Shown here one piece after another: positions 13,683 through 64,000 of a DNA stretch of 64,000 nt. Every line of letters starts with the position of its first letter. The first letter of the stretch is position 1. The position numbers and the translations under genes are program-made. Where the stretch lies: assembly GCF_030506305.1 (NCBI RefSeq), contig NZ_CP119421.1, forward strand, positions 2,147,501-2,211,500. Direction: 5' to 3'. The notes under the pieces were generated by a model, which made no database searches, was not told where the DNA came from, and worked only from the letters and a program-made list of their open reading frames with translations. This DNA is from Porifericola rhodea (lineage in GTDB: Bacteria > Bacteroidota > Bacteroidia > Cytophagales > Cyclobacteriaceae).

Positions 13683-13873
13683 AAGTTCGATTATTCGATA
13701 TCTATACTGTTTTTTTTACGTAAATATATAGGTTACGCCAATTGGCACGAAGATATTAAGATTTGCTATAACTTTATTCATTTACAAAAGTTTAATGTTT
13801 ATCTGGTACTGTAAATGGATACTATAACTGCTTCGGTGCCCGTTGATTTTGAAAGAAAAAAACAATTAGCATT

Positions 13874-36080: not shown

Positions 36081-36097
36081 AGACTTATATTTGCGAA

Positions 36098-37654: not shown

Positions 37655-37673
37655 AGAAACGTATTAAAAAAAA

Positions 37674-47332: not shown

Positions 47333-47972
47333 CTATGGCTAAGCTATTTAATGCAGTTCTTAGAGTTTCAGCTACACACACCAAGCGGTTTACTGCAAAC
47401 TCATAAGTAGAATCGGTTCGTTCTCGTCCTTGGGCTTTTACCCATTTTTGCTCCCGACATTTTTCCAGCAAAATATTTAGCTACATTTCTTCAGCGCCAC
47501 CCTTTACCAACCTGCTCCGGAATTCACTTAATACACTGCTGGGCGGCATCCTGCTATCAAAGCCTGCATCAGTGAGTTCCAGGCTTAAGGCATATTTCCA
47601 ACCGTCGTGGAACGATCGATGCGACTCCTTACAGAATCAGTGGCTTGCCGCTCCGATAGGCCTTGTATTGCATTAAGGTAACTAAAGCTAAGCGCCAGGG
47701 GTATTCTGCAGGTTGACCTTGTCTGGGAAACAGATCTGTGAAACAAATATCCTCATATATTGCTCCCAACTCATCTTTAAGGTGCATGTATATATTACCC
47801 TGTAGAAATACAGCACGACCTACACGGGGTGTCTCATTGGGTATTTCAGGAATCGTGTGTGGGTGTAGTGACATAGTATTGCTATTAAGGATGAAAGAAG
47901 GATAAAACTTCATTCTTAATAAACCAACAGGCTCATAAAGTGTATTAATCATCTAAAATTAATATTTCCCCT

Positions 47973-48367: not shown

Positions 48368-49405
48368 TCAGCGGGAATATGTGTTCTTACAAGTATTTTT
48401 CAAAACTTGTATCTGAACTTTCATACCGTCAAGTAATTTAGCATAATTAGAAAAATTAAAGGATTTAATAATTCCCCATCTTCTAACGAGCCGGATATGA
48501 TATAAATTCTTCTTAGTATTATTAAATGTATTGAGTTTGCGGATTAGTATTATAGGTATAGATAATAGGTTATATGAAAAGTAAAACAATAAGTATAAAT
48601 TTCTGTTTTTTTCAATAAAATTAGCTTTCCTATAAAAATAATCATAAGAGGTAAGGGTAAATCTGGCTTTAGAAAATCCGGTCGCCAATTTCTGCACATA
48701 AGACCAGTTTAATCTTTCTTGAGGCATATAATGATATAGATACAAAGCAGGGTTGTAATAGAGCTTATACCCTAAAATTTTGATTAAAAAGCAGAGCTCT
48801 GCATCTCCTCCAGAGCTTAAATCTTGTCCTGTGCGGTCAGATAATAATGACCGGAAGTTACTTTTTTTAATACACTCCATTATTGATTTTCTCACTGTAA
48901 GCCCTGCTCCCCATAATTCATACTTTGTCTCAGGTATTACTCCTTTCTCTGCTGCTTGCTCTCCTACCGCGTATAGATTCTGAAAGGTATCAAACCAATC
49001 TGGTGGATCTGCGTCAAAAGCAGCAATGTTTTTGCTTCCACAAGCGCCTCTTGTGGGGTCAGCATTCATGGTTTCAAATACATCTTCTACCCAGTTTTTA
49101 CATATCCAGTTATCATCATCAATAAAACTTATATATTCATAACGGGCAGCATGAATACCTGCGTTACGAGCATTACTAAGGCCTGGAGAAGCTTCATGAA
49201 TAATATTGATTTCTTTATTATCACAGTGTTTTTTCCAAATTTCCTCTGCTACTTTTTGTGTGTTGTCGGAAGAAGCATTATCTACGAGTATAACTTCCCA
49301 CGCTATATCTTTTTTAACTTCTTGTTGTGCTATGTGCTCTAATGTTTTAGGCAAACGAGAGGCACTATTATAACAGCAAACAACAATACTTACACCTGAT
49401 GACAT
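48368..49405 (-). CDS. Glycosyltransferase, GT2 type
   Basis: 345 residues, GT-A fold. VSIVVCCYNSASRLPKTLEHIAQQ and VILVDNASSDNTQKV are the nucleotide-binding start, SFIDDDNWICKNWVEDV holds the metal-binding Asp triad, and YELWGAGLTVRKSIM a later motif. A hydrophobic stretch near residue 280 (LLFYFSYNLLSIPIILI) may attach it to the membrane. It follows the upstream GT4 gene by 4 bases. Confidence 0.92.
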   Translation of the reverse strand: MSSGVSIVVCCYNSASRLPKTLEHIAQQEVKKDIAWEVILVDNASSDNTQKVAEEIWKKHCDNKEINIIHEASPGLSNARNAGIHAARYEYISFIDDDNWICKNWVEDVFETMNADPTRGACGSKNIAAFDADPPDWFDTFQNLYAVGEQAAEKGVIPETKYELWGAGLTVRKSIMECIKKSNFRSLLSDRTGQDLSSGGDAELCFLIKILGYKLYYNPALYLYHYMPQERLNWSYVQKLATGFSKARFTLTSYDYFYRKANFIEKNRNLYLLFYFSYNLLSIPIILIRKLNTFNNTKKNLYHIRLVRRWGIIKSFNFSNYAKLLDGMKVQIQVLKNTCKNTYSR

Positions 49406-49409
49406 GAGT

Positions 49410-50552
49410 TTAGTTTTGTGTAATGTAATCTAATAATTGGCTGCCTGGGTTAGGATGTATTTTTTTAATTGCTAGCTGATAAGCATTGTTGCCCATTAAT
49501 TGCCAGTTCTCTCTTTGATCCCAGGCTTTGTCCAAAGCCTCTTCGAAATATTTAGGTGAAGGAGAAGCTGCCAAAAAACCTGTTTCTCCTTCTTTAACAA
49601 ACTCTGAGTTTCCTCCAACATCAGTAGCTACAGCAGAACGACCGCATAGCATTGCTTCCATCAGCGCACAGGGAGTTCCTTCTGCGATGGATGGCATCAC
49701 CATGATATGGTTCTCTGCCCAGATATCCCGGATGCTATTTACATGCCCTTTAAATGATACTTTCTGTTGTATGGAAAAGAACTTTGCAAGTTCTTCTAAA
49801 TACTTTTTGTCATCTCCTTTACCATAAAGGTTTAGTCTCCAGTTTCTTTGATACCACTTTTCGTTTCCTAATATTTGAAATAGAATATCTTGTCCCTTAA
49901 AATTACAGTCAAGCCGAGATACACAGGCTAAATGATAAGTTTGGTCCGTTTTAGGGTAATCCACAGGCTTATCCTTGGAAACGTTAAGAGGAGCAAATAT
50001 GACATTAGAGTTTTTTAATGATAAAGCTAGCTGTCGTTTACTTACTTCACGGTTTCTATCAGATACGAAGCATACCCCCTTTGCTCTAGAAAAAATTTTT
50101 CTCGCTTCTTGAAAGCTTTTGTAGGGCAAAGTATAGTGTTCTTGATTAAACTGTGGAACTATATAATAGGGAATATCACTATGCTGCACCGCTTTATATA
50201 CTGCCTTTTCCTGTACTATATCATAATTACCTCCTTGACTAATACAGATTACATCAGGCTGGAACTTGTTAAGAGCTTTTTTAAAAGAAGAAAAATTTAA
50301 ATATTCTTTCTGTACTTTGTTAAGAGCTTTAGAAATGATGGCAGAATCCAGATCATACCTTTTTCTAAAATGAATAATTGCACCTGAGTCCTGAAGTTTT
50401 TGTAAAAGAGGGTGACGTTGCTTCCAGGTATATACGGAAATAAACACTGTGTAACCTTGTTGAAGCGCTTCTAAAGCTGATTTTGCCCAAAAGTTTTCGC
50501 TTCCTCCCCACGAAAAACCGGCCATAGTAGATACAAACGCGATCCTTTTCAT
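49410..50552 (-). CDS. Glycosyltransferase, GT4 type
   Basis: 380 residues, GT-B fold. The N-terminal MKRIAFVSTMAGFSWGGSENFWAKSALE with the glycine-rich loop and the C-terminal HLACVSRLDCNFKGQDILFQILG, LYGKGDDKKYLEELA and PSIAEGTPCALMEAMLCGRSAVATDVGGN identify the family. First gene of a two-gene unit with the GT2 after it; upstream lies only decayed DNA, so the promoter should be just before it. Confidence 0.92.
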   Translation of the reverse strand: MKRIAFVSTMAGFSWGGSENFWAKSALEALQQGYTVFISVYTWKQRHPLLQKLQDSGAIIHFRKRYDLDSAIISKALNKVQKEYLNFSSFKKALNKFQPDVICISQGGNYDIVQEKAVYKAVQHSDIPYYIVPQFNQEHYTLPYKSFQEARKIFSRAKGVCFVSDRNREVSKRQLALSLKNSNVIFAPLNVSKDKPVDYPKTDQTYHLACVSRLDCNFKGQDILFQILGNEKWYQRNWRLNLYGKGDDKKYLEELAKFFSIQQKVSFKGHVNSIRDIWAENHIMVMPSIAEGTPCALMEAMLCGRSAVATDVGGNSEFVKEGETGFLAASPSPKYFEEALDKAWDQRENWQLMGNNAYQLAIKKIHPNPGSQLLDYITQN

Positions 50553-51264
50553 TATAAAAATAAGTTCTTATAAGAATTATAACTTCTTAGCTGAAAATAG
50601 CTGCCCCTCAAAAATTTTATCAAATATAGCTTGTCATTTAGTAAAGAATCTAATTTTAGTCTGGCTTTACCTGGAGACAATGGCAATAACTTGTAATGAG
50701 TGATTTGTGGAATTTGAAGTGATGTTTCATTGTTGCCACGAATCACTTACATCATAAATATGCGATCTTTTTATTTTGCAAAAATGGGAGTTGATTTAAT
50801 AAATTAAAACTTATATCAAAATTAGTTCTATGCAGTGAGCTACGATTAGCTATCATAATATTTGCCTCATTATCAAAGAAATTTGCCATTAAAAAGATAA
50901 AAGTATCTGAAGTTAAACTTTATAATCTATTGACATAATATCTATATGTCAATCATCTTGTATCAGATATATAGATTGTCCATTTAACAAGTCGGAAAAG
51001 CCTTTGTTCCTGTAGACAGTATAAGCTCCACGTTTGGTAAACTACATCTAATTTACCTCTTTCAGGGAGGTAGCAAAGGTATGAATGCGTAACCGAATGC
51101 TTCTAATTGTCTAGTACACTTTTTTAGCACATATTAGTTAATTTGAAGTTCCTTAATATGTAAGACATTTTAAGCTGCCTGCTTTCCATAAAAAAAGCTT
51201 ATATACTTCTATGCTATCATCAGGTATATACTCGTGCCTGCTACTATATTTATACTATAAGTCC
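50553..51264. other. Gene-free A+T-rich region
   Basis: No gene recognised in 712 bases. Short open frames (for example minus 50552-50746) have no family features. Upstream regulatory DNA for the GT4 gene at 50552 must lie here. Confidence 0.5.
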
Positions 51265-51653
51265 CTAATTGTTAGGAGAGGCTTTGCGTTTAGGTTTCTC
51301 TTTATTTATATAATGAAAAAGCATTTCCTCTTCTTCACAATTTAGAGTAGAGGCTAATGCATCACCAACACTTTTTACTATACCATGTAGAAAACTACTC
51401 AAATGAAATGTTGCAGAAGATCGTGTTTTTTTTAGGTTACCGCACTTCAAAATTGCTAAATCTATATTCAACGAGAATACTAGTACAATATAAGTGATTC
51501 TGGATAACTTTTTTCATAGTATTGGACATCGTGAGGATACTCAACACAAAGTAAATAATGCTCTGCTTCTAACTACTCCACTAATTGTAGCTTGATATTT
51601 CTGAAGTACTTGGACCATAGCCTTGCGATATATGCAGGCCTATCACTGCTCAT
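51265..51653 (-). pseudogene. Decayed small gene of unknown family
   Basis: Coding-like reading on the minus strand: MSSDRPAYIARLWSKYFRNI, KLQLVE, an in-frame TAG, then LEAEHYLLCVEYPHDVQYY and EKSYPESLILY. A one-frame shift near 51475 continues as VLVFSLNIDLAILKCGNLKK, FLHGIVKSVGDALASTLNCE and KPKRKASPNN. It has a coherent amino-acid composition over about 129 codons with one stop and one shift. I do not recognise the family, and it may be chance. Confidence 0.35.
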
Positions 51654-52923
51654 ATAGGTTATGCTCTTCTTGTTTCAATTGACGCTTACATAGTATTACA
51701 CTAGTGTCAGCATACTGCTTTCGCTTGCTAGTATGATATATTTTTATGCAGCTAATTTTAGATAACGCTACCCATTAAACGCTTTTCTTATATGAGTATA
51801 CCACAATATACGCATTGTAAGTTGGCGGTTATTGCAAGAAGAAAATTGTCGCGGGAAGAATACATTTATAGGTACAAAATAGCTTTGGTGCTTAGTGAGA
51901 ACGATTTACCTATAGGGTTAGCCTTTTACCAAGTGCTTATAGTAACCATTTTGCCTTAGTTCGCTTAGGTTTTGACCGTTTTTACGGTAGTATTGTTTGG
52001 CAAGATGCTGGATTTGCTAATTATGTATGGTCGGCGTTCCGGTAGTAAAATTTTTACAAACAAGAAAAGCAAACATTGAGTTTGCTCCGCAGCATAAAAA
52101 AAACTCTCAATGAGGGGGGGTGGATACTATTGCTAAAAAATACAACCGAAAAAAACTAGAAAATACCTTCAGTGAAATGAGGGCTAATTTGCTAAGCAAA
52201 TACATGCAGTAACGTTAGAAAGCTGTCAGTATAACATCTATTTAACAATCATGGAATATAGCTCAGTCAAATATATTCAATTTTAAGTAGCAACTTAGAT
52301 TAATTAGTTCAAGAATTGATAAAAGAGTTTATTACATGTCTATAACGGTATCAATTACTTCTTTGGCTTAGGAGAAGTTTTTAAATTAGTTAGAATATAT
52401 ATGGTAATATAATAACCTATACGAGATATCATGTAACCTTTTCAATAAGGTTTATGGGCTTTACAGATGTATTTGACAGTAAGGAAGTGTATCATACTTA
52501 AAATGACCTGAATCTCAATGTCGGAAGTATAAATAATAAGCCCAATACAGAAATAGAAAAGTAGTTATAGACCTCTTGTATGATATCGAGCTTGAAAATA
52601 TCTGAAAATTATTTATACGAATCAGCTTATTTATAGACTTTTGCAAATTATAGATATTGTCACCTACTTACTTTAGTAAGTATCAATTTTGCTAAAAATT
52701 ACGGTATTTAGTCTACGGTTTTCTTTTTATTTCACTATGGCCATTGCTTTCACTTTTTGCTTGTAGAAATTTTAATAGGTGGTAAATAGAAAGCCTAAGA
52801 AGGAATATCGATCACATTTTAAATTAAGAGCTAAGATTTCTGTAGGAACAACTTTTTACAGTAATTTTGAGAGGAGGTTTTTTTGTGAACAAGTCTGCAT
52901 AAACATATTTATTTCATACTTAA
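51654..52923. other. Decayed region upstream of the sulfotransferase gene
   Basis: 1,270 bases without an intact gene; holds the transposase-like remnant listed at 51790-52260. The 660 bases before the sulfotransferase show nothing beyond A/T-rich DNA and its presumed promoter. Confidence 0.5.
51790..52260 (+). pseudogene. Possible DDE transposase remnant (IS982-like?)
   Basis: Frames on the plus strand give LSENDLPIGLAFYQVLIV, then WQDAGFANYVW, VVKFLQTRKANIEFAPQH and KKYNRKKLENTFSEMRANLL with an adjacent-frame KQIHAVTLESCQYNIYL. The RKKxExxFSxxxxxxxKxIHAVT layout resembles the end of IS982-type transposases. Many stops and shifts. Weak evidence; the family is uncertain and I found no inverted repeats. 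Confidence 0.3.
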
Positions 52924-53760
52924 ATGATATCAACCATAAAAGAGAATCTTTTTTTGCTGCCTAAGTTTTGGATTGAGTATCGGCTTAATAAAGGCAAAGT
53001 TAAGAGTTTCAGGCACGGTAATGTTGCCATGTTCCATTTTGGCAGATGTGGGAGTACCATTCTAGCTAATATGCTTAGTCAGCATCCAGATATATATTGG
53101 GACGGAGAAGTATTTGAACAGATGAGGGTAGGGAGCCTAATTGAACTTAAAATTACTAAAGATCCCATAAAGCTGCTTGATATAAAGCTGCATGCAAAAA
53201 AGTGTAAATTTTATGGGTTTGAGACCAAAGCTTTTAAGGAAGAACATTTAAGGAAAGATCTTCTTAATATGAGATTTGAACAATACTTTCAGGAATTGCT
53301 AAAACTTGGTTTCGGGAAGTTCATTTTGTTAAAAAGAAATAACTATTTACGACAAATGTTGTCTCTATATATGGGTTGGAAGGCTAAAGTCTGGCATATA
53401 AAGCAGAATGAGCGTTTTAAGGAGCAGAAGGTAATATTGGATGTAAAGGATACTAAAATAGGTAATACAACAAAGCCAACTTTACTTCATTTGTTTGAAG
53501 ATTTTGATAATTATTATGCAATTATTGAGTCATCAGTGAAAGGCTATGATAATTTGATTTTAAGCTATGAAGATGATGTACTACCAGATCCTATGATTGG
53601 CTATTCAAAAATATGTTCCTTTTTAGGTGCAGGTTCATTTCCCGCAGAGATTAACCTGAAGAAAACAAATACACAAGCACTTTCTGAGGCAATTGAAAAT
53701 TTTGATGAAATTAAGGAAATTTTAATAGGAACTAAATATGAGTGGATGTTAACTGATTGA
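52924..53760 (+). CDS. Sulfotransferase-like protein
   Basis: 278 residues, the only plus-strand gene in this half of the polysaccharide region. VAMFHFGRCGSTILANMLSQHPDIYWDGEVFE contains the 5'-phosphosulfate-binding loop of PAPS-dependent sulfotransferases (FxRxGST), followed by an acceptor-side Glu. The C-terminal LILSYEDDVLPDPMIGYSKICSFLG matches the usual late segment. Transfers sulfate from PAPS; the acceptor is probably the polymer or its precursors, inferred from the neighbours. No signal peptide, so cytoplasmic or membrane-associated. Confidence 0.82.
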   Translation: MISTIKENLFLLPKFWIEYRLNKGKVKSFRHGNVAMFHFGRCGSTILANMLSQHPDIYWDGEVFEQMRVGSLIELKITKDPIKLLDIKLHAKKCKFYGFETKAFKEEHLRKDLLNMRFEQYFQELLKLGFGKFILLKRNNYLRQMLSLYMGWKAKVWHIKQNERFKEQKVILDVKDTKIGNTTKPTLLHLFEDFDNYYAIIESSVKGYDNLILSYEDDVLPDPMIGYSKICSFLGAGSFPAEINLKKTNTQALSEAIENFDEIKEILIGTKYEWMLTD

Positions 53761-53785
53761 TTAGCCTAGCAATTTTCTGTTGTTT

Positions 53786-53823
53786 AAGCTATTGTTTTTA
53801 TCACTAAGACAATAGCTTTTTTT
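53786..53823 (+). terminator. Terminator of the sulfotransferase gene
   Basis: Perfect ten-base stem AAGCTATTGT/ACAATAGCTT followed by T7. The stop codon of the convergent GT2 gene lies in the hairpin loop, so the two genes share this stretch. Confidence 0.85.
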
Positions 53824-54778
53824 GAATATGTCTCTTAAAACGGCTATATATAGACTTATCTATCTTCTGAGCAAATTTTATGAATTTGATAAAAGATACT
53901 GAGACCTTTTGAGAGTTTGAGAATAATCGCATTGAGCGCTCAAAATAAATATCAAAGACTTTATCTAATTCACTATCTGTCGGTTCAACAATTTTCTTGT
54001 CTAACACATAATTAAGAAGGTAATATTCTTCTGCTACCCTATTATAAACCTCCTGGGGACTTTGAAATGCCCTGGTAGATTTTTCATGATGCCGGAAATA
54101 GTTTAGATGATTTGCTGAAAAATATATATTTGAGATTGACAGTATTTTAATCCACATTAACCAATCTCCACAGCGTTTAAATTCTGTATTGGCCATATTG
54201 GCTTGTTCAAATAGTTCTTTTTTAAAGAGTACTGCGCTTGCATTTGGAATAGTATTCTTTTTAAGAAGAAAGTTTCTACATTCATCATGCCCATTACTGT
54301 AAAAATCATGATTCCATCGTTCCGTATCTAGTTCGTCGGTCCAGCTTTGCAAAGATTTACGAAATTTACCATTCTGATCGACACTAATTGATTGGCAGTA
54401 AGCAAGTCCGATTTCTAAGTTAGAATCTTGTAGTTTTGGCAGAAGGGTAGCAAGTAAGGCTTCATCCGCATAGTCATCACTTTCTGCAATCCAGATATAC
54501 TTTCCTGAGGCCAGGCTTACTCCTTTATTCCACTGAGCAAATGGACTTCCACTATTTGTTCTATTGAAATAAACCTTGATTCTGGAGTCCGTTGAAGCAA
54601 GCTGCTGAATGACTTCCTGACTATTATCTTTAGAAGCATCATCAAGGATAATAACTTCAAAGTTTTGAAAAGTTTGATTTAGGATCGTTTCTAAACGTAA
54701 AGGTAAGTACTGAGCATGGTTATAATTGGGAACAATAACTGATACAATGGGAGAAGGGCTTTCATTCATTATGTTCAA
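53804..54778 (-). CDS. Glycosyltransferase, GT2 type
   Basis: 324 residues (MNIMNESPSPIVSV; a second ATG three codons on is equally possible). GT-A motifs VIVPNYNHAQYLPLRLETILNQ, VIILDDASKDNSQ, and WIAESDDYAD as metal-binding site, then KKNTIPNASAVLFKKELF and CGDWLMWIKIL. Strongly similar throughout to the GT2 at 59384-60346, so the two are paralogues. Its end lies inside the terminator of the convergent sulfotransferase. Confidence 0.92.
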   Translation of the reverse strand: MNIMNESPSPIVSVIVPNYNHAQYLPLRLETILNQTFQNFEVIILDDASKDNSQEVIQQLASTDSRIKVYFNRTNSGSPFAQWNKGVSLASGKYIWIAESDDYADEALLATLLPKLQDSNLEIGLAYCQSISVDQNGKFRKSLQSWTDELDTERWNHDFYSNGHDECRNFLLKKNTIPNASAVLFKKELFEQANMANTEFKRCGDWLMWIKILSISNIYFSANHLNYFRHHEKSTRAFQSPQEVYNRVAEEYYLLNYVLDKKIVEPTDSELDKVFDIYFERSMRLFSNSQKVSVSFIKFIKFAQKIDKSIYSRFKRHIQKKLLS

Positions 54779-54829
54779 AGAGAAAATGAATCGTTGAGCT
54801 ATAATTGCAACAAATTCATTTTGTTTAAC

Positions 54830-56107
54830 TTAGTTTTTATACAGCTCTATAATATAAGCGTCATTATTAGTCAAGACATTAAGGTTGATCCTTGCCTTAC
54901 CATCAGAGACAGGTATAGTTTGATCAGTTATCAATTCTGACTCTAATGAAGAAAGTGGTATTATTGAACTTTGGCTATCTGGTATCTTGATAATACTGAC
55001 TCTAATCTGATCAAGGTCTGGGAAAACTACGTCAATATTATTTAGATTAATAATGATATCATTTACACTAGATGTATAATGGTTACCTACTAAAATTTCC
55101 GCAAAAGTAGCTTCGCCAGGAGTTAGGTAAGCAAAAGGAGTAATATATTTATTCGAAGTTGAGCTAACCAGGCGATGGTCTATACTTCTGGCATAAGCCC
55201 TATACACCCACCAAAGGGGGGTAGGAATATTATCACTGGTGATGAGTCCACTAAGGGTATTGTTCCAGCATCCTCGCGACCAACAAGTTCTACAGGCTGC
55301 ATCAGCTCCTCCCCGTTCAAGGTAATATAAATAGCCAAGCATGGAGGCTGGTACTTGATAAACATCATGAAATCCGTACTCATTAATTTGAATTTCACGT
55401 ATGTTTAAGCTTGCGTACTTTGAATTTATTATATAGGTATTGCGAGCATAATTTAAATTAGCTTTTACTTTTGAAAGGTCGTTTCCTGATTGAAATTCAT
55501 GCCATGATAAAATATCTAGTTTAACACCTCTATTCAAACAATAATCAAGAAATGCTTGAATAAATTCGGGTTTCCAATGAGAACTGGGGCCTGTTATAAC
55601 CGCATCATCACCATATTTTTCTCTAATCACATCATGTGCTACTGCAAAAGTCTCATAAAATTGCTCTGGAGTACCAATCCAGAAATTACCTTCATCAGGC
55701 TCGTTCCAGATATCAAAAATAATTTCAGGGTCATCAATTTTGTCCAATTCATTTTTCAAAAAACTTCTATAGCGATCGTAGTCTTCATATGGCATGAAAG
55801 AATTACCATTACTATATGCATGCCATAAATCACTTAGTACAACAATAACCTGAGAGCCAAACTTCTTCTTTCTTTCTTTCAAGCTATGAATTCTACTTCC
55901 TGTTCTGAGCAAACGAGGTTGAAGCTTCTCTATGATAGAATCTGATGGTTTAGACTCACCTACACCATGTAGGAAGCCACTCATGGATTTTACATTAGGG
56001 CTTAACTTTGCAAGGTCAATAGATATATTTGGGGTGTCAAATATATCTTCATCGGTACAACTTACAAATAAGCATATTAGTAGAAATAATAGTAATTGTT
56101 GCTTCAT
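54830..56107 (-). CDS. GH39-like glycoside hydrolase, lipoprotein
   Basis: 425 residues from MKQQLLLFLLICLFVSCTDED, a lipoprotein signal with Cys after LFVS; the frame opens 8 codons earlier. A TIM-barrel catalytic domain follows (LLRTGSRIHSL, EIIFDIWNEPDEGNFW, ILSWHEFQSGNDL, IREIQINEYGFHD). WNEP carries the likely acid/base Glu and QINEYGF the likely nucleophile Glu. The layout resembles GH39 xylosidase-type and related clan-A hydrolases. A C-terminal beta domain ends it. A surface hydrolase encoded among capsule glycosyltransferases could trim or release the polymer; substrate unknown. Confidence 0.82.
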   Translation of the reverse strand: MKQQLLLFLLICLFVSCTDEDIFDTPNISIDLAKLSPNVKSMSGFLHGVGESKPSDSIIEKLQPRLLRTGSRIHSLKERKKKFGSQVIVVLSDLWHAYSNGNSFMPYEDYDRYRSFLKNELDKIDDPEIIFDIWNEPDEGNFWIGTPEQFYETFAVAHDVIREKYGDDAVITGPSSHWKPEFIQAFLDYCLNRGVKLDILSWHEFQSGNDLSKVKANLNYARNTYIINSKYASLNIREIQINEYGFHDVYQVPASMLGYLYYLERGGADAACRTCWSRGCWNNTLSGLITSDNIPTPLWWVYRAYARSIDHRLVSSTSNKYITPFAYLTPGEATFAEILVGNHYTSSVNDIIINLNNIDVVFPDLDQIRVSIIKIPDSQSSIIPLSSLESELITDQTIPVSDGKARINLNVLTNNDAYIIELYKN

Positions 56108-56209
56108 TTTATCGCTTATTGGAGAATGCATTAATATTGCTTCAATACGTACTAATATGGCATAGATCTAATAGCATACCCCTTCTAAAATCCTTGATTA
56201 GACATAGAC

Positions 56210-57268
56210 TTATACCTTAGAGATTGATTTGTATGTTATCTGGCACAGCTTACTTGGAATCACCTTGTGCTTTTTTAAGATTAACATCGAAATCATTTTG
56301 TAACCAAGCAAATATATAGAGACTTTTTTGTTTGAACGGCAGTGTAAATATAAGTAATTTAAAAAGTAGACACCAAGTTTATAGTGCATAGTGGTAATTA
56401 GATGATGTGCTTTAAGAAACCCCCAACATTGAATAGCACTCACTTTGTCTCGTTGTTGTATAATTAACTGTCTGGAGAAATTAAACATGACTGCAATAAT
56501 TGCGTTCTGTCTCGAGGGAGTAAGCTTATTCTCATGAATTATGTCAAGTACAATTTTTTTATATATGTTTACTTTGATGGAGAGTTGCTTTTTGAAAGCA
56601 AACCCTTGTTGGCTAATTGAAGCCTGATCATGTTTGCGATAATAACAGTCAGGTACAATATGAAGTAGTTTCTTATAACGAGGAGTCCGAAGCAATATTT
56701 GGCAATGGAACTCAACGTCTTGCCAAAAAGGAAGCCCCTCTCTGAAGCCTATGGTATTTCTTAAAAATGCAGTTTTATACATTGGGCAAGCTGTCTGCCA
56801 AACAGTATCTAGTCTGAGAAAACGTGTAAGATCGTCTTCACCAGTATCAATATTCCATAAAATATTTGAATCCTTTGGTTGACGATGGAATAGTAGCATT
56901 GAGAAAACCAAAAAATCGTTTTTTGGATAATTTGTGAATTCTTCTACTCTTTTTTGTATACAGTGAGGAGCTAATAAATCATCAGAATCTAAAAAGATAA
57001 CATATTCACCACTTGCTTCTTCTACTCCAATATTCCTACATGTGGGAGCCCCATCAGGGGCTCTGTTTCTTCGGTACAATTTAATTCGGGAGTCTTTATA
57101 GGCCATAGACTGAACAATCTCAAATGAGCCATCCTGTGAACCATCATCAATTACTATTACTTCCCAATGAACGTATGTTTGTTGGATAATAGAGTATAGA
57201 GTAGCCTCTACCAGATCAGCTCTATTATATAAAGGAAGTACAATTGATACGTATGGTTTTACAGACAT
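56210..57268 (-). CDS. Glycosyltransferase, GT2 type
   Basis: 352 residues. VSIVLPLYNRADLVEATLYSIIQQTY, VIVIDDGSQDGSFEIV and FLDSDDLLAPHCIQ (metal site) mark a GT-A glycosyltransferase; FWQDVEFHCQILL is the acceptor-side Asp motif. The last 100 residues are basic and aromatic, possibly membrane-peripheral. Same orientation as the surrounding polysaccharide genes. Confidence 0.92.
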   Translation of the reverse strand: MSVKPYVSIVLPLYNRADLVEATLYSIIQQTYVHWEVIVIDDGSQDGSFEIVQSMAYKDSRIKLYRRNRAPDGAPTCRNIGVEEASGEYVIFLDSDDLLAPHCIQKRVEEFTNYPKNDFLVFSMLLFHRQPKDSNILWNIDTGEDDLTRFLRLDTVWQTACPMYKTAFLRNTIGFREGLPFWQDVEFHCQILLRTPRYKKLLHIVPDCYYRKHDQASISQQGFAFKKQLSIKVNIYKKIVLDIIHENKLTPSRQNAIIAVMFNFSRQLIIQQRDKVSAIQCWGFLKAHHLITTMHYKLGVYFLNYLYLHCRSNKKVSIYLLGYKMISMLILKKHKVIPSKLCQITYKSISKV

Positions 57269-57388
57269 AAATTTTATCCCCTGTCGCTTTATTGATTAAT
57301 AATTAGTAAACGATATTTTTCTAATGTGATAAGTCTTTATTCAGTAGTAATTGTAAGTTATCAATTTATAGTTTCAGCATATTAATAA

Positions 57389-58126
57389 CTATCTATTGGA
57401 GCTCCGTTTTAATATTGGTTTGCTATCAAATGCACGGGTTCTTCTTTTGATCATTCCTGATAGAACTATGGAGAGATTTTTTTTTCTTCACGGAAATAAG
57501 CTAGGGTTATTAAACATATAGTGCTGATTATTTCCTCCTATCGACTTATTAGATTGTTGTATTTCAATGTTTGGCAAGAACTTAATATTAATATTTAAGG
57601 AATTTAATTCCTTTTTTTTTAGTAGACTACGTGTATTTTATCAGCTCGTCAAAATCTAATAGTAAAACATTATTTTTCCCAACCTTTTTAATACAAGGAG
57701 CGATTTGAGTATAGTAGCGAGTAATATCTATATAAAGGCGGTCCTGCATAAGAGCCTCTTCTAAAGGTAAATCTGTATAACTCCTTTCGTAAGTATGCAT
57801 ATAACTTAATATGATATGGTCAATAGGGTTACGGACTATATAAATAAATTTTGCTTTGAGTTATATTCATATAGATCGTTCCAAATATTTAAATTTCTGA
57901 GAGGATAAAAAGTATAGCTTGTAGAAGTTTCCATAAACAGTGTATCAGCTTGCTCAGTGAATAATCTTTCATAAGTGCGCAAATCTTTTTTCCAGTCTGG
58001 TGTTGTACTAAAAAAATGTGCCTCTTTGTTATTAGACCCTACTATTGATGGGTGCCTATTAAGCATATCAAATAATATGGTAGTACCAGATTTGTGGGCC
58101 TCTAATATGATAAAATCTACTTTCAT
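57389..58126 (-). pseudogene. Sulfotransferase, broken by frameshifts and a stop
   Basis: Minus-strand remnant of a PAPS sulfotransferase (heparan N-sulfotransferase-like). It begins intact with MKVDFIILEAHKSGTTILFD (PAPS loop), then NKEAHFFSTTPDW and ETSTSYTFYP. A one-base shift near 57850-57858 precedes AKFIYIVRNPIDHIILSYMH and LEEALMQDRLYIDITRYYT. A second shift in an A9 run near 57612-57625 precedes LNINIKFLPNIEIQQSNKS. An in-frame TGA at 57488-57490 follows, and the last homologous piece ends at 57389. About 246 codons, close to full length. Upstream and downstream neighbours are intact. Confidence 0.82.
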
Positions 58127-58224
58127 AGTATTAAGTGATTCCTAAATAAGTAGACGCAGTTAGGCTAGGTCTTTTTAAGATGCCATTACATACTGTGCCC
58201 TTATTACAAATTACTTAAAAAAAG

Positions 58225-59340
58225 TTAGTCATTTGTAAGTGAATCATATATTGCCTGATCAATAATAGTAATGTGTTTTTGCATGGTATAGTGTTGTTTC
58301 ACTCTTTGTCTCCCTTTTTCTCCCATCATTTTTGCTAGAGATCTATCTTGGGCGAGTTTAAGCATCGCATTAGCCATTGCGTCTACGTCTTGTTCTTCTA
58401 CCAATAAGCCAGTCTCTCCATGAACTATTACATCTTGTATACCTGCATGCTTGGTAGATACCACTGGCAATTTAGCTGCATTGGCTTCTAGAATGGCTAC
58501 AGGCGTACCTTCGGAATCCCCATCAGGAGCAATAATAGAATGTTGCACAAAGCAAAAAGCATTTTGATAAGCTTCCACAATCTTTTGATGAGAGACTGCT
58601 CCTAAAAAATTAATTGAATTCTGTATTCCAAGTTTTTCTACTAATTCTTTACATTTTTCAAACAAGGGGCCATCTCCAGCCATGGTAAGAGTGGCTTCAG
58701 GAATCTTTTGAACAACTTTATAGAAAGCCTCAATAGTTAGATGAGGAGCCTTTTTATTTACAAATCGGCCTACTGCAAGAAAGTTAATCTGTGTGAGAGG
58801 AGGGTTGAGTGTAAAAAATACATCGTTTGGAGCACATGGATTTACTATTAACTTTTCAGTTGGTGCACCAAGCTTGATCAGCCTTTGTTTCATTTCTTCA
58901 GAAACAACAATCAGGTGGCAGGCGTACCTGAACATATTTGCATACTCTTTCTTATACTGCTTCATAAGATGATACAGGTATGCGTCGTATCCATGAAAGT
59001 ATACGATCAAAGGAATTCCTAATCTTTCACAGACTGCATAAACCTCAGCTCCTACAGGTCCAAATTCCGCAAGAACAATCTCTATCTTTTTTTTCTTAAA
59101 AAACCTAATTAATGATGGCTCTAAAAATAGGTTTCTGTAAGTTCTTACTAATTTGAGCTTATAGAATAGTTTCTTTACTTTCAGGTTCTCATTAATATGG
59201 TATTGACAATTAGAAGATTCCATAGGAAAAAAAATGCCATGTAAATGGCAGATATCAGCATTTAAAAGATCAATATGAGCCTTTATAAATGTGGCTGAAT
59301 AAGGAGCTTCTTCCGGAGAAATCAGAGCGAGTTTAGTCAT
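58225..59340 (-). CDS. Glycosyltransferase, GT4 type
   Basis: 371 residues, GT-B fold. PLIVYFHGYDAYLYHLMKQYKKEYANMF is the mid-protein segment common to colanic-acid-type GT4 enzymes. The C-terminal part has INFLAVGRFVNKKAPHLTIEAF, LTMAGDGPLFEKCKELV and DSEGTPVAILEANAAKLPVVSTKHAG. Follows the GT2 gene at 59384 by 43 bases in the same orientation. Confidence 0.92.
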   Translation of the reverse strand: MTKLALISPEEAPYSATFIKAHIDLLNADICHLHGIFFPMESSNCQYHINENLKVKKLFYKLKLVRTYRNLFLEPSLIRFFKKKKIEIVLAEFGPVGAEVYAVCERLGIPLIVYFHGYDAYLYHLMKQYKKEYANMFRYACHLIVVSEEMKQRLIKLGAPTEKLIVNPCAPNDVFFTLNPPLTQINFLAVGRFVNKKAPHLTIEAFYKVVQKIPEATLTMAGDGPLFEKCKELVEKLGIQNSINFLGAVSHQKIVEAYQNAFCFVQHSIIAPDGDSEGTPVAILEANAAKLPVVSTKHAGIQDVIVHGETGLLVEEQDVDAMANAMLKLAQDRSLAKMMGEKGRQRVKQHYTMQKHITIIDQAIYDSLTND

Positions 59341-59383
59341 AAAATGATAACGGCATAGTACTACATTTGAGTCTGAAAAGCCT

Positions 59384-60346
59384 TTATTTTTTATATCTTA
59401 ATCTTTTAACAATAAGTGAGAGCGGACTTAAATTTTTTTGTCTGCATATATTGTAGTAGTCTTTTCTAAACATATTTTTATAATAAGGAAAAAGTATAAA
59501 CCAGTTGTTTAAGGTTGCTTTATATCGATTTTGAATGATCTGCTGATTTATGCCAGCATACGCTGAGGCGGCATTAATCACCTCTACTTCTTCTTCAATA
59601 CGCCTCCTTTTTTTTTCATGTGTATTGTGCACTCTTGTCGTAGCTTCATGTTTTCTGAATTTGTTCAGTGGAGATGAGACGAAGGCTACTTTATGTCCTG
59701 CTATCATGGATAACCATAATAACCAATCTCCAGCCATTTTCATATGAGCAACTATAGGATTGTACCTATCTATGAAGACATCTTTTCGAAATATGACGGC
59801 ACTTGCATTTGGAATAACATTTTTATAAAGCATGAACTGATTGATAAAATCATTCCCTTCAATAACAAAGTCATTTCTCCAAATATTAGGCGTAAAGTCT
59901 TCTGTCCAGAATATTCTGTTTCTGATATAGTTACCATGGGTATCTACATCATCTGATTGAGCATATACAAGAGCAATCTTTTTGTCTCTTTCAATGAAGG
60001 GGAGCAAGGTTTCTAAAAAAGTATTTTCAGAAAAGTCATCACTTTCTGCAATCCAAATATATTTACCCTTAGCCATATGTACACCTTTTTTCCATTGTAA
60101 AAAGGTACTGCCACTATTATGCTTATTAGCAATAACATGGCTTACTTTCGGATGGTGTTCATATTGCTGAATAACATGCAAGCTTTGATCTGTAGACTTG
60201 TCATCAAGTATGATAAGCTCAAAATCTTGATATGTTTGCTGAAGTATACTATCTATTCTCTTAGCTAAGAAGGGGGCGTGGTTATAATTTGGTAGTATGA
60301 CTGTCAGTGGAGGAGTATAGCCTATTTGTTCAGTAATATTTGACAT
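59384..60346 (-). CDS. Glycosyltransferase, GT2 type
   Basis: 320 residues. TVILPNYNHAPFLAKRIDSILQQTY, LIILDDKSTDQSLHV and WIAESDDFSENTFLETLLPF mark the GT-A fold; YKNVIPNASAVIFRKDVF and AGDWLLWLSMI follow. Paralogue of 53804-54778. The start overlaps the upstream GT2 by 25 bases, indicating translational coupling. Confidence 0.92.
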   Translation of the reverse strand: MSNITEQIGYTPPLTVILPNYNHAPFLAKRIDSILQQTYQDFELIILDDKSTDQSLHVIQQYEHHPKVSHVIANKHNSGSTFLQWKKGVHMAKGKYIWIAESDDFSENTFLETLLPFIERDKKIALVYAQSDDVDTHGNYIRNRIFWTEDFTPNIWRNDFVIEGNDFINQFMLYKNVIPNASAVIFRKDVFIDRYNPIVAHMKMAGDWLLWLSMIAGHKVAFVSSPLNKFRKHEATTRVHNTHEKKRRRIEEEVEVINAASAYAGINQQIIQNRYKATLNNWFILFPYYKNMFRKDYYNICRQKNLSPLSLIVKRLRYKK

Positions 60347-61131
60347 TTATTTTTCAGATAGAAATATACGTATTCAATAAAAAAAATAAGCTTTTTATGC
60401 TTGAGTGATTCTCTGGCAAAATGTTTAGCCCAATGTGCTTTCCATTGAGAAGAAAGTTGCTCATGCTCGTATCTTAAAATAAGCAAAGGTTTGATTTCCT
60501 GAAATTTTTCATCTTTAACACTAGAGCTTAAACCTCCATCTGAATAATTGGAGATAATATGTGGTACATATTTCTTTTTGTATTTCTTATTTAAAAACCA
60601 TTTAAGGTTATGTGCCCAATCCGCGTGAGCTATGTATGCTTGATTGAACACGCCTGTATTGATAAAGAGCGATTTTTTAAAAAAAATCGCTTGATGACAA
60701 ATGTTTTGATCAATAAGCTTTAGGGCATCATATTCACCCGCATAAGGGCCATTAAATCGTGAGCTCAGAACATTTCCATAAATAACATCAAGTGTTAAGT
60801 TGTTTGGGTTAGAGAAGATTTTCTCTAAAATATCATGACTATACAAGCTATCATCGCTACCTAAAAAAAAGACCCACTCACCGGCCGCAATGGATATGCC
60901 TTTATTCATGGCATCATATACTCCCTTATCTTTTTCGCACAGGTATTTTATGTGTGGGTATTTTAATTTATACTGTTTAATAATTCTAAGAGTATGATCT
61001 GTTGATAACCCATCAATGATAAGGTGCTCTATATTAGTATATGATTGTGATATCACACTTTCTAAACATGCAATAATAGTATCTGCCGAATTATAGGTTG
61101 GAGTAATGATACTTACTTTGGGCTGTGACAT
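60322..61131 (-). CDS. Glycosyltransferase, GT2 type (WcaE-like)
   Basis: 269 residues. KVSIITPTYNSADTIIACLESVISQSY, LIIDGLSTDHTLRIIKQYK and DKGVYDAMNKGISIAAGEWVFFLGSDDSLY are the WcaE/colanic-acid-type GT2 pattern, with NICHQAIFFKKSLF after it. Overlaps the next GT2 by 25 bases and lies 48 bases after the sulfotransferase gene. Confidence 0.92.
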   Translation of the reverse strand: MSQPKVSIITPTYNSADTIIACLESVISQSYTNIEHLIIDGLSTDHTLRIIKQYKLKYPHIKYLCEKDKGVYDAMNKGISIAAGEWVFFLGSDDSLYSHDILEKIFSNPNNLTLDVIYGNVLSSRFNGPYAGEYDALKLIDQNICHQAIFFKKSLFINTGVFNQAYIAHADWAHNLKWFLNKKYKKKYVPHIISNYSDGGLSSSVKDEKFQEIKPLLILRYEHEQLSSQWKAHWAKHFARESLKHKKLIFFIEYVYFYLKNKCQILLNK

Positions 61132-61179
61132 GATTAAAAAATTGCTTATTTTTCTACAGACTTTGTAGACATCTCTATG

Positions 61180-62001
61180 CTAAGTCTTGAGAAGTCTTTT
61201 TATACGTTTTAATGCGCCCATACTTTTGTCAAAAAGAGGAGAGTTGTATACCTGATTCGCTAAACGAAGTTTGTTTAATTCCAAATTTACTTTATTCTCT
61301 CCCATTTGTTTGAGTTGAGCATTGAAGCGCTTTTCCATTTCATGATATAATAAAGTTTCTTCCTTATTCATCTCCTGTATCAATTCTATAGTTTCCTTAC
61401 TTATCTCTTCAGAAGTTTTTCGTTTTTTTGTTTTATTACGAACTCTATAATAAGGTAAATGGAATTGATAGTGATGTTTAAGTAATACCAGGGATTTATC
61501 ATATTGCTCTAAAAAGCCGACTACCGGAAAATGCTTCTCTATATTCTCTAAGGCTCTTTCTAACATTAATTCTGGTTTATCCCTTATGCCACTTATATAC
61601 CTTATCTGGCCATTATTTACATCTCCTTGGTTGATATTTAGTACAAAATCATAAAGGGACATATTATTTTTCGTAATGGTATCATACAGTCTATGCTCAG
61701 GGAGTGAGAGTACATAATAGTAAAAAGAAATAATCCTATCTACCGGTTTTCTCAGAAAGGCGATATAGTCAGTTTTGCCATTCATATATTCGTGCAAGCC
61801 ATAATTTGTATGGCCTAATAAACAATGAATTTGATCTCTTTCATGCTGAGGCATATTTACAAACTTATCAATATTAAGTTTATCATTACCTATTAGCTGC
61901 ACTGTAAATGTGCTTTCTGGCCTAAAATGTCTAAGCAAAATTGGACGAAAAGAGGATCCTCCATTTTTGGGAATGTGCATGAAAATAATATTATGCTTCA
62001 T
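61180..62001 (-). CDS. Sulfotransferase (Sulfotransfer_2-like)
   Basis: 273 residues. The N-terminal IIFMHIPKNGGSSFRPILLRHF is the PAPS 5'-phosphosulfate loop of the heparan-sulfate-2-O type (HIPKxGGSSF). YIAFLRKPVDRIISFYYYVLSL is the 3'-phosphate motif, R-x-P-x-x-R-x-x-S. A basic C-terminal region follows. Predicted to sulfate a sugar of the polysaccharide. It lies within the run of glycosyltransferase genes, 57 bases after the GT4. Confidence 0.87.
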   Translation of the reverse strand: MKHNIIFMHIPKNGGSSFRPILLRHFRPESTFTVQLIGNDKLNIDKFVNMPQHERDQIHCLLGHTNYGLHEYMNGKTDYIAFLRKPVDRIISFYYYVLSLPEHRLYDTITKNNMSLYDFVLNINQGDVNNGQIRYISGIRDKPELMLERALENIEKHFPVVGFLEQYDKSLVLLKHHYQFHLPYYRVRNKTKKRKTSEEISKETIELIQEMNKEETLLYHEMEKRFNAQLKQMGENKVNLELNKLRLANQVYNSPLFDKSMGALKRIKRLLKT

Positions 62002-62058
62002 ATGTTCTTAAGTGTATTAATCTTAGCTGAAAATGAGCAATATACATGTCAACATTAG

Positions 62059-63297
62059 CTAATGGTTATAGGATACTATTTTGTAAAGAGCCAAATATTT
62101 GTCAGCTTGCTTAACAATATTGAAATGGCGTTGAGCATAATCTATAATATCTCTTTTGCTAAAAATATATTTATCGCTTATGGCTTCTTCAATTGCTATT
62201 TTTAGAGCATCAGCAGATAAATTTTTTGCAAGAATTCCGTTAAAACCTGTTTGTATAATTTCTTTCATTCCTCCAATAGGAAAAGATATAATAGGTGTAC
62301 CACAAGCCATCGCCTCTATCATAACATTTGGTAAATTATCTTCTCTAGAAGGTATTATTACATAATCTACAGCTGCATATAGTAGGCTAATTAAGCGTTC
62401 ATCATTAATGCTGTGTAATGGAAGCGGTTGAATATTATTTTTGTTTATAGAAAAGTTTCCTTCTCCTAGCGTACAAATTACTATCTCTTCTTTTAAAGTT
62501 ATGCTATCAATGGCTCCCTTAAGCAAGTCCATCCCTTTACGGTAATTACCAAGCCGATCACTTACAAAAAGGAATATTTTTTTATCGGTAGGTATATTAA
62601 AAACTGAGCGAGCAAATGTTGGATCATAATATTTAAATATTTGAGTATCCAAGCCATTTGCAATGTGGTAATGTGGGTAGTTTTTAAAGATCTCACTCTC
62701 TTGCGATGCCTTTTTTAACCACTCTGAGGGAGTGATCACTGTCAGTGCTTTAAAATGACTAAGAGCTTTTGCTTTGATATCTAACTCTTTTTGGTTCAAA
62801 GCAATTAACTCAGCATTGTCCCTATTTCTATTTAAGTCCCCCTGATAATGTAAGCCTCCCAGAAAAGGATTCATATCATGAAAAGTCCAGAAGACGGGCT
62901 TGTTTAAATTTTTAAAAACAGATGAAAAATCAACCAAATTACCTGCCCAGTGCAAGTGAATGATATCAGCTTGCTGAAAAACTTTACTGGCTCTAATATT
63001 TATAGAAGAGGTAGAAAAGCTAAACCCTTCAAAAGAGCTGTCCCCTTTTATTCGTAAAAGCCTTTTTTTTTGCCTTTCTTCCTTACTATGTTTAAGCTTA
63101 AGCTTCTTTAGCAGAGTATAAATTTTACTTTTATTTGAGCCCTCATAAACGTAGTGACTATTCGGCACCTCTTTTGTAGAAGGTCCCAAAAAGAGAAATT
63201 CGGAAGTAACCCCTCTTCGTAAATACTCTTTATGAAATCTAATAGCTGCCTGGGCAGCTCCTCCTCGATCTCTATAACAAATGTGAAGGACTATCAA
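62059..63297 (-). CDS. Glycosyltransferase, GT4 type
   Basis: 412 residues. GT-B start VLHICYRDRGGAAQAAIRFHKEYLRRG with the glycine loop; ADIIHLHWAGNLVDF and PVFWTFHDMNPFLGGLHY are typical of capsule GT4 enzymes. C-terminal donor region KKIFLFVSDRLGNYRKGMDLL and SREDNLPNVMIEAMACGTPIISFPIGGMKEI. One base separates it from the pyruvyl transferase gene upstream. Confidence 0.93.
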   Translation of the reverse strand: MIVLHICYRDRGGAAQAAIRFHKEYLRRGVTSEFLFLGPSTKEVPNSHYVYEGSNKSKIYTLLKKLKLKHSKEERQKKRLLRIKGDSSFEGFSFSTSSINIRASKVFQQADIIHLHWAGNLVDFSSVFKNLNKPVFWTFHDMNPFLGGLHYQGDLNRNRDNAELIALNQKELDIKAKALSHFKALTVITPSEWLKKASQESEIFKNYPHYHIANGLDTQIFKYYDPTFARSVFNIPTDKKIFLFVSDRLGNYRKGMDLLKGAIDSITLKEEIVICTLGEGNFSINKNNIQPLPLHSINDERLISLLYAAVDYVIIPSREDNLPNVMIEAMACGTPIISFPIGGMKEIIQTGFNGILAKNLSADALKIAIEEAISDKYIFSKRDIIDYAQRHFNIVKQADKYLALYKIVSYNH

Positions 63298-63298
63298 A

Positions 63299-64000
63299 TT
63301 AGACCGGGGAGTTTAAATTGAAACCTTCTGCAAGATCATGAAGAGAAATCATTTTATCCAATGCGTTATGATCAGTTAGGTAGCCTGTAATTTTTCCACC
63401 ATTGGTATAGTCAATCGCAATAAAATCAGTCTCAAGAGTATGAGCAAATAACACAGAATGGAATCTCATGCAGAGATTGATTTTCGAAGCTTGCATAGCT
63501 TTCACAGTAAAATCAACAGAAGTGTTATATTTATGGATCACATGTTCAAAATCTTGAAAATATTTTTTTGCAAATTTTCTGTTAAAATCCCTATCATCAT
63601 TACCAACTACAAATGTATGCATAGGGTAGAAAACAGGAGTTAAATCATGCTTAAGACAGGTCTCCTGGATATATTTAGCTAAATTTGCTTCAAATGCTTC
63701 CTTGGTTTTCAAAAACTCATCATGGTTTTTATCTCCCATATATTCGGAGGTCCATTCTCTTAGGAAACATGCTAATATGTTCTTTTTACTCTCAGTTTTA
63801 ATTTTAGTACTTACTTTTCTAATATACTCACGCGCAGGGTCTCCAATATTTTCAATATCAGTGCGATTTGAAAGTTTTTTGGCATATTCAAAAGATGCAT
63901 TATCACGTACTTTAATAGTAGTCGCGATTTGGAACATCTTCTTTACAGCATTAATATGTTGCTGTTCTTTTAAAGGTCCTACACCACACCCAAATATGAT
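63299..64000 (-). CDS. Polysaccharide pyruvyl transferase family protein (5' end beyond window)
   Basis: The minus-strand frame is open to the end of the window, so the start is missing. Visible part about 233 residues: IIFGCGVGPLKEQQHINAVKKMF, ATTIKVRDNASFEYAKKLS, ILACFLREWTSEYM, SKINLCMRFHSVLFAHTLETDFIAIDYTNGGKITGYL. GxGxGP and the CMRFHSxxFA motif with its His are the CsaB/WcaK-type pattern. It would move pyruvate from PEP to a sugar, forming a ketal on the polymer. One base before the GT4 gene. Confidence 0.87.
   Translation of the reverse strand: MIFGCGVGPLKEQQHINAVKKMFQIATTIKVRDNASFEYAKKLSNRTDIENIGDPAREYIRKVSTKIKTESKKNILACFLREWTSEYMGDKNHDEFLKTKEAFEANLAKYIQETCLKHDLTPVFYPMHTFVVGNDDRDFNRKFAKKYFQDFEHVIHKYNTSVDFTVKAMQASKINLCMRFHSVLFAHTLETDFIAIDYTNGGKITGYLTDHNALDKMISLHDLAEGFNLNSPV

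Follow-up and report, generated by a model that had tools for sequence, protein, structure and literature searches.

The window examined here is a stretch of 64,000 nucleotides from the genome of Porifericola rhodea (5.49 Mb; the window is C1:2147501-2211500, where C1 is a single contig and C1 coordinates are contig positions, all others being window positions), and it holds most of a surface polysaccharide locus with several sulfotransferase genes, a gene fusing a radical S-adenosylmethionine (radical-SAM) domain to a PF04230 domain, and an ATP-binding cassette (ABC) exporter whose Wzt gene is directly followed by a sulfotransferase gene of the SULT kind. A first-pass annotation had placed a sulfated, possibly pyruvylated polysaccharide locus at 48368-64000; these borders lie within the locus and are not its limits, which run from the phosphoglycosyltransferase at window position 31634 to the end of a Wza-like SLBB protein at C1:2222263, some 43 kb in all with the right limit 10.8 kb beyond the window end. 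The genes read as follows (GT, glycosyltransferase).

31634-33004, minus strand: initiating polyprenyl glycosylphosphotransferase, left locus end (TIGR03025, 401.7 bits, cut-off 295.55)
33391-34953, minus strand: Wzi-like capsule assembly protein, left locus end (PF14052, 79.4 bits)
34950-41051, minus strand: left part of the locus, with a GT4, a pectate-lyase-like protein, a GT4, a Wzy_C-type polymerase/ligase and a GT2
48368-49405, minus strand: GT2 glycosyltransferase (PF00535, 102 bits)
49410-50552, minus strand: GT4 glycosyltransferase (PF13692, 98.6 bits)
52924-53760, plus strand: probable sulfotransferase of PF13469 type, 278 aa (26.4 bits, cut-off 27)
53804-54778, minus strand: GT2 glycosyltransferase (PF00535, 102 bits)
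54830-56131, minus strand: GH39-like glycoside hydrolase, N-terminus a lipoprotein signal by eye (PF01229, 37.9 bits)
56210-57268, minus strand: GT2 glycosyltransferase (PF00535, 104 bits)
57627-58126, minus strand: broken sulfotransferase remnant with frameshift and internal stops (PF13469/PF00685 in two frames)
58225-59340, minus strand: GT4 glycosyltransferase (PF00534, 136 bits)
59384-60346, minus strand: GT2 glycosyltransferase (PF00535, 90 bits)
60322-61131, minus strand: GT2 glycosyltransferase (PF00535, 89.4 bits)
61180-62001, minus strand: sulfotransferase of heparan sulfate 2-O/6-O type (PF03567, 41.1 bits; PF06990, 39 bits)
62059-63297, minus strand: GT4 glycosyltransferase, the usual next gene after the fusion (PF00534, 75 bits)
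63299-64000, minus strand: C-terminal 233 aa of the radical-SAM/PF04230 fusion (whole gene C1:2210799-2213039)
C1:2213056-2213823, minus strand: SULT-like sulfotransferase, past the window end (PF00685, 144 bits)

Past the window end, 5' of the fusion and on the same strand, stand the SULT-like sulfotransferase, Wzt, Wzm, a nucleoside diphosphate sugar epimerase, a TviB-like dehydrogenase (588.3 bits, cut-off 592), Wzz and an SLBB/Poly_export protein. The eight glycosyltransferases announced for 48368-64000 are borne out by Pfam, those at 48368, 53804, 56210, 59384 and 60322 being of GT2 type and those at 49410, 58225 and 62059 of GT4 type. Also coded within this biosynthesis locus are the pectate-lyase-like (36098-37654) and GH39-like (54830-56131) proteins, which may trim or release the polymer. 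Between the two locus halves lie an integrase-core fragment (46479-47042), by its domains an insertion sequence remnant, and a short frame (47629-47952) without Pfam match, and beside the lone plus-strand sulfotransferase is an AT-rich stretch of about 2.4 kb (50553-52923) without recognisable genes, in which a search for broken genes against the proteins gathered in this analysis gave nothing convincing. PorZ and a Por-type secretion tail are also coded in the window, which speaks for the Bacteroidota.

Two congeners carry, at the same site, shared ends around a differing centre, which shows the stretch from window 31634 to C1:2222263 to be a single locus with a serotype-like centre. In these the SLBB protein (76 and 73% identity) adjoins polA (86% in both), and at the opposite end sit the same chromate-transporter and dioxygenase genes as here (84-91% identity). 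At the right end both congeners have SLBB, Wzz, dehydrogenase, epimerase and Wzm (74-87% identity for the last three), while the initiating transferase and Wzi of the left end are 85 and 68% identical in one congener and 40 and 39% in the other. The centre differs: neither congener has the fusion gene, and with our own sulfotransferase profiles the locus of one congener shows a single gene of another type and that of the other none. Judged by genes and synteny this is an exchangeable, serotype-like, ABC-exported capsule or O-antigen locus, with 48368-64000 as part of its variable centre. The swapped centre of congener G002 (L150 6006-13746) reads by eye as nonulosonic-acid synthesis genes, another capsule type.

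Three sulfotransferase genes had been proposed, two intact and one dead; they are present, one of them as a probable member only, and a fourth, intact one beside the exporter had been missed. In the comparison of the three with sulfotransferase families, 61180-62001 is confirmed as intact with scores above its cut-offs (22 bits for PF03567 and 27 for PF06990), both halves of the dead copy match, and 52924-53760 falls just below. A profile made from a 7-sequence alignment of 61180-62001 matches HS6ST3 (6.5e-17) and HS2ST (6.9e-17) in the PDB, where phmmer with the single sequence gives only matches at E 0.13 or worse. R84, P86, R89 and S92 are invariant across the 7 aligned sequences, and by the 5'-phosphosulfate and 3'-phosphate motifs of such enzymes R84 and S92 would be the 3'-phosphate site. 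On these matches the protein is a member of the heparan-sulfate 2-O/6-O sulfotransferase family. For 52924-53760, on the plus strand opposite its neighbours, the open frame stands and the family assignment is only probable, since the protein stays below the PF13469 cut-off though its homologs match (all 6 of the alignment, itself included, at E <=0.01, best 6.7e-9). In that alignment R41, G43, T45, R138 and S147 are invariant across the 6 sequences. Single-sequence structure prediction gave no usable model (predicted local distance difference test, pLDDT, 34.7), phmmer against the PDB returned nothing at E up to 1, and the viral contigs searched hold no relative; by its homologs it is a probable PF13469-type sulfotransferase. 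The dead gene is indeed dead, with halves at 57836-58126 (PF13469, E 0.0018) and 57627-57860 (E 5e-6) in different minus-strand frames and stops inside the matched stretch. The gene after Wzt, which matches PDB chains of SULT enzymes (1.5e-26), is by family an unambiguous SULT-like sulfotransferase. Searches with three Pfam families only give 10 sulfotransferase places in the genome, and 4 of these 10 lie inside 13.4 kb (p ~1.5e-5 under uniform positions); such clustering is far from uniform and so not chance, and is as expected for a dedicated locus.

Genes for synthesis of the sulfate donor 3'-phosphoadenosine 5'-phosphosulfate (PAPS), which the first-pass annotation had named as support if present elsewhere in the genome, are there: an adenosine 5'-phosphosulfate (APS) kinase recognised by Pfam directly precedes a cysD-like protein, so read from its PF01507 match, and a cysN-like frame identified by eye. 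Two further PF01507 proteins of the genome carry CC and CxxC cysteine pairs, presumably typical of APS-using reductases, and if they are such reductases, cysC would be free to serve sulfation. The idea of a sulfated polymer is supported by family membership, clustering and the PAPS-synthesis genes, and from these we infer the sulfate itself; on the genes the product is very probably a sulfated, ABC-exported surface polymer.

A comparable gene set has already been published for the sulfated capsule of Vibrio sp. KMM 8419 (PMC11641403), which shares with the present locus an ABC-exported capsule, glycosyltransferase genes, three sulfotransferase genes (one beside O-antigen genes) and a strain-variable region. 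The Vibrio cluster differs in holding second copies of cysC, cysN and cysD, whereas here the PAPS genes are elsewhere; its polymer structure is known, and the accessible part of that account mentions no radical-SAM/PF04230 fusion (PMC11641403). In the present locus a SULT-like gene follows Wzt. The Synechan cluster of Synechocystis likewise makes a bacterial sulfated exopolysaccharide, but a cyanobacterial one (PMC8205485). A sulfated-capsule locus is of an already known kind, and what sets this one apart is the exporter pairing and the fusion.

The pairing concerns the C-terminal domain of Wzt, which in cap-dependent Wzm/Wzt export of O antigens is a carbohydrate-binding domain that reads the chain end after an enzyme has modified this non-reducing end (PMC9445017, PMC11231755). 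Between the Wzt of this genome and those of the two congeners identity is 72 and 76% in the ATPase part and 20 and 18% in the C-terminal part. The link to the sulfotransferase was suggested by a Phycisphaeraceae locus with the same order as here, Wzm, Wzt, SULT-like sulfotransferase, fusion and GT4, whose Wzt is 63% identical in the N-domain and 33-35% in the C-domain; other loci were sought afterwards. A tblastn of the Wzt C-domain over 72,556 plasmids matched four Bradyrhizobium plasmids of almost the same length and one further record, and a separate tblastn of the SULT-like sulfotransferase in plasmids gave eight records that include the same four, in all of which the two matches are neighbours. 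The one Bradyrhizobium plasmid opened reads Wzm, Wzt, then two sulfotransferase genes. With a two-sequence C-domain profile 22 of 392 genomes of the Phycisphaeraceae locus's phylum were matched, its own genome included, and the only strong new match (7.7e-41) has a SULT-like gene directly after Wzt. Thus for the C-domains closest to the window's, at 37% (new same-phylum locus), 35% (Phycisphaeraceae) and 32% identity (Bradyrhizobium), the next gene is SULT-like in 3/3. The other 20 profile loci and an Acuticoccus plasmid (C-domain at most 29% over at least 70 columns, or unmatched) have a sulfotransferase next in 1/21, of another type, and 22 further Wzts (20 from other fusion loci and those of the two congeners) in 0/22. 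Next genes of the 20 distant loci were judged by Pfam on the next frame in 13 (two without family and possibly not real genes) and by our own sulfotransferase profiles on the frames in the other 7 (L184, L185, L190, L194, L196, L197, L199), of which three, L194, L196 and L197, break off close to Wzt at a contig end. Fisher tests give 0.002 (3/3 against 1/21), 0.0003 (against 1/43) and 0.003 (against 1/43 for the two loci that came to light once the idea existed). These values are to be taken as indications, given an identity threshold drawn after looking, lineages that depend on one another and some next genes that allowed no judgement.

It was also considered that the type of the Wzt C-domain follows the fusion, and this was rejected. 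Over the alignment, the C-domains of the 20 Wzts from other fusion loci reach only 11-22% likeness to the window's, and the stretches around the 37% locus and the Bradyrhizobium locus (15.0 and 18.4 kb) hold no fusion homolog, so that C-domain type tracks the sulfotransferase and not the fusion. Against PF14524, the Pfam family of the Wzt C-terminal carbohydrate-binding domain (cut-off 30.4 bits), the window's C-domain scores 30.2 bits alone and 28 in the whole protein, and that of the Phycisphaeraceae relative 30.8; a PDB profile search with the two C-domains gave a single chance-like match (E 0.14). Elsewhere the gene after Wzt takes other forms. In two distant loci of the phylum of L079 (L182 6458-7702, L188 6226-7392) it codes for an APH-like kinase, a possible phosphate-cap enzyme, in line with the idea that the cap is often made by whatever gene follows Wzt; the aminotransferase, PGA_cap protein or transketolase following other distant Wzts does not fit it. 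In gene order the present pairing resembles an Aeromonas salmonicida O-antigen cluster, where a sulfotransferase-domain hypothetical protein (ORF19) directly follows Wzt (ORF18), but there a WbbB homolog comes next, unlike here, and the polymer, as far as the available part of the paper describes it, shows no sulfate (PMC4483657).

The polysaccharide pyruvyl transferase of the first-pass annotation is real as a PF04230 domain and mistaken as a stand-alone enzyme, for it is the C-terminal part of a 746-aa radical-SAM fusion crossing the window end. A scan of a genome collection gave 56 loci, and with 16 that match only the radical-SAM part left out there remain 40 with both domains. The 39 homologs with one open frame were aligned; L077, whose frame is in two pieces, enters the gene-order counts but neither the alignment nor the tree. 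L061/L090 and L062/L095 are apparently the same records, and there are near-copy rows (L065/L066 and a group of five same-type Algibacter loci), so that locus counts are not event counts. The N-terminal part (PF04055, 63.5 bits, cut-off 29.5) has the CX3CX2C cysteines 49, 53 and 56 in 39/39 homologs, and in all seven cysteines are invariant, the three of the SAM cluster and four further. The C-terminal part (PF04230, 86.1 bits, cut-off 25.3) has R528, R675, H677 and K699 in 39/39, which answer to CsaB R148, R306, H308 and K328 by motif and spacing rather than by superposition. With CsaB, Pvg1p and WbbZ (PMC10435577, PMC10629545) the fusion thus shares the domain, these counterparts of the phosphoenolpyruvate (PEP) site and GT-B-like fold matches; unlike them it places PF04230 behind a radical-SAM domain, replaces the Asn of the N-x-G-D motif by Thr (34) or His (5), and stays below the cut-off of the CsaB NCBIfam equivalog (102.1 against 213.1 bits). 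A structure model of the homolog from Reichenbachiella agariperforans (pLDDT 88.5, pTM 0.89) has as fold matches radical-SAM enzymes for one half and proteins of UDP-GlcNAc 2-epimerase kind for the other, a match also reported for a pyruvyltransferase (PMC10629545). Strain DSM 26134 of this Reichenbachiella species has a homolog (L070). Best for the N-terminal domain are the cytosylglucuronate decarboxylase BlsE and SkfB (Z 22.4 and 22.2, 19% identity), but these matched chains cover the radical-SAM part only; the 50 fold matches listed do not include 5ax7 or 6x1l, both pyruvyltransferase structures, which could rank lower. The residues make it likely that the fusion uses PEP. Pyruvylation, for which the four invariant counterparts speak, is only possible, the odds of pyruvyl transfer by the fusion being about even; as the gene is a radical-SAM fusion on which the literature search found no paper, naming a pyruvyl ketal as its product would go too far.

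A homolog of the GT4 at 62059-63297 lies directly after the fusion in 27/40 loci and at most three genes away in 30/40, and Wzm or Wzt homologs are near the fusion in 20/40, with several of the loci truncated where their contigs end. A search of 38 relatives gave no full-length homolog; 394 further genomes of the phylum, each scored for no more than two candidates, have at least three, and the viral contigs searched gave one weak relative, to the radical-SAM part alone. The 40 rows of the fusion tree fall into eight NCBI phylum-level groups (two rows in none) and the Bacteroidota label needs at least four changes, a pattern that is compatible with transfer and is no proof of it. The fusion was tried as a marker of sulfated polymers and rejected: our own profiles, which could miss other types, find sulfotransferases in the flanks of 4/40 loci, and 20/39 fusion-bearing genomes have no PF00685 match (E <=0.001). 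By these counts sulfotransferases and fusion are separable. Among single loci, L059 (7267-14139) has a 2290-aa frame that joins radical-SAM, PF04230, the partner GT4 and more stretches, with a second radical-SAM domain by eye, and L061 (4579-14335) has five sulfotransferase-like genes around one fusion, three matching PF00685 and two (11722-12384, 13451-14335) read by eye. Stand-alone pyruvyl transferase genes occur beside redox genes on two plasmids, a nitroreductase on NZ_CP094831.1 of Acuticoccus (L154 9744-12299) and an F420 hydrogenase beta-subunit-like gene on NZ_CP097551.1 of Dinoroseobacter (L155 10305-12705), and are perhaps a parallel to the fusion, transfer from PEP being followed by a redox step.

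Gene content, synteny, invariant active-site residues and the pairing of C-domain and sulfotransferase are observed, and as a whole they are best explained, with a probability of roughly 0.6, by an exchangeable, sulfated, ABC-exported capsule or O-antigen-like locus in which sulfate placed by the SULT-like enzyme is read by Wzt as an export signal. The polymer would be built in the cytoplasm and receive its sulfate from PAPS through the two or three intact sulfotransferases that the locus codes for; Wzm/Wzt, together with an envelope channel of Wzz/Wza-like kind, would export it. The SULT-like enzyme coded after Wzt would most likely set sulfate on or near the growing end, the Wzt C-terminal domain would most likely read that end, and the fusion with its GT4 partner may make a further modification, probably PEP-dependent. 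Sulfate as the cap itself is the boldest element, put forward from gene order and domain identities and held to be less likely than not. Stated in full, a terminal sulfate made by the SULT-like enzyme would be the chain-termination and export cap recognised by the C-domain, the pair would travel as a cassette among Bacteroidota, Planctomycetota and Alphaproteobacteria, and the fusion would add a second, new modification; so extended the reading is rather doubtful.

Several observations weigh against a sulfate signal made and read at this locus. The cysC gene is about 0.4 Mb away and not inside the locus, 52924-53760 stays under its family cut-off and the Wzt C-domain just under that of Pfam (30.2 against 30.4 bits), and sulfotransferases flank only 4/40 fusion loci. 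Besides the window's own, three loci make up the set of close C-domains; one of them was the source of the idea, and the threshold was set post hoc. The Acuticoccus plasmid Wzt (29% in the C-domain) has a nitroreductase and a pyruvyl transferase and no sulfotransferase in 18.5 kb, and four genes from the same SULT-like group (L090, L109, L155 of Dinoroseobacter, L156 of Sinorhizobium) are without Wzt in the stretch examined, so this enzyme type also serves elsewhere and the pairing is not strict.

These last genes favour the strongest alternative, an ordinary sulfated capsule in which repeat units are sulfated along the chain, the Wzt C-domain reads for instance a terminal sugar, and the neighbouring gene is operon habit. 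It accords with at least one other intact sulfotransferase among the glycosyltransferase genes, with Wzt C-domains that differ widely between loci and, in the part of the account available, with the sulfate within the repeat of the published capsule (PMC11641403); it would leave the pairing in three other loci, against 1/43 comparison Wzts, a coincidence, and is a serious competitor that we hold somewhat short of even. Alternatively the fusion and not a sulfotransferase could make the terminal epitope read by Wzt, as a pyruvylated or radical-modified end, in keeping with the exporter genes near half of the fusion loci and with the terminal pyruvate known on a Klebsiella O antigen (WbbZ, PMC10629545); this is unlikely given the dissimilar C-domains of 20 Wzts from other fusion loci and the two close ones in loci without fusion in the stretch searched. 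A decaying locus without sulfated polymer, suggested by the dead sulfotransferase copy, by another that stands alone on the opposite strand beside the AT-rich gap with no convincing homolog in it, and by the nearby insertion sequence remnant, is highly improbable, as the glycosyltransferase and export frames are open and the two sulfotransferases above cut-offs are intact.

If the sulfate signal is true, a sulfate export cap would add a new chemistry to the methyl, (methyl)phosphate and 3-deoxy-D-manno-oct-2-ulosonic acid (Kdo) caps named in two papers on such export, in the main text of which words starting with 'sulf' occur 0 times (PMC9445017, PMC11231755), the pairing here pointing to sulfate. 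It would let polymers capped in this way be recognised from genomes by a simple sign, and would offer a possible reason for a sulfotransferase gene after Wzt in the O-antigen cluster whose polymer shows no sulfate (PMC4483657). The spread of the fusion family over eight phylum-level groups points to a radical step in surface-polysaccharide synthesis, and the exporter pairing together with the fusion makes the locus a noteworthy variant of sulfated-capsule loci.

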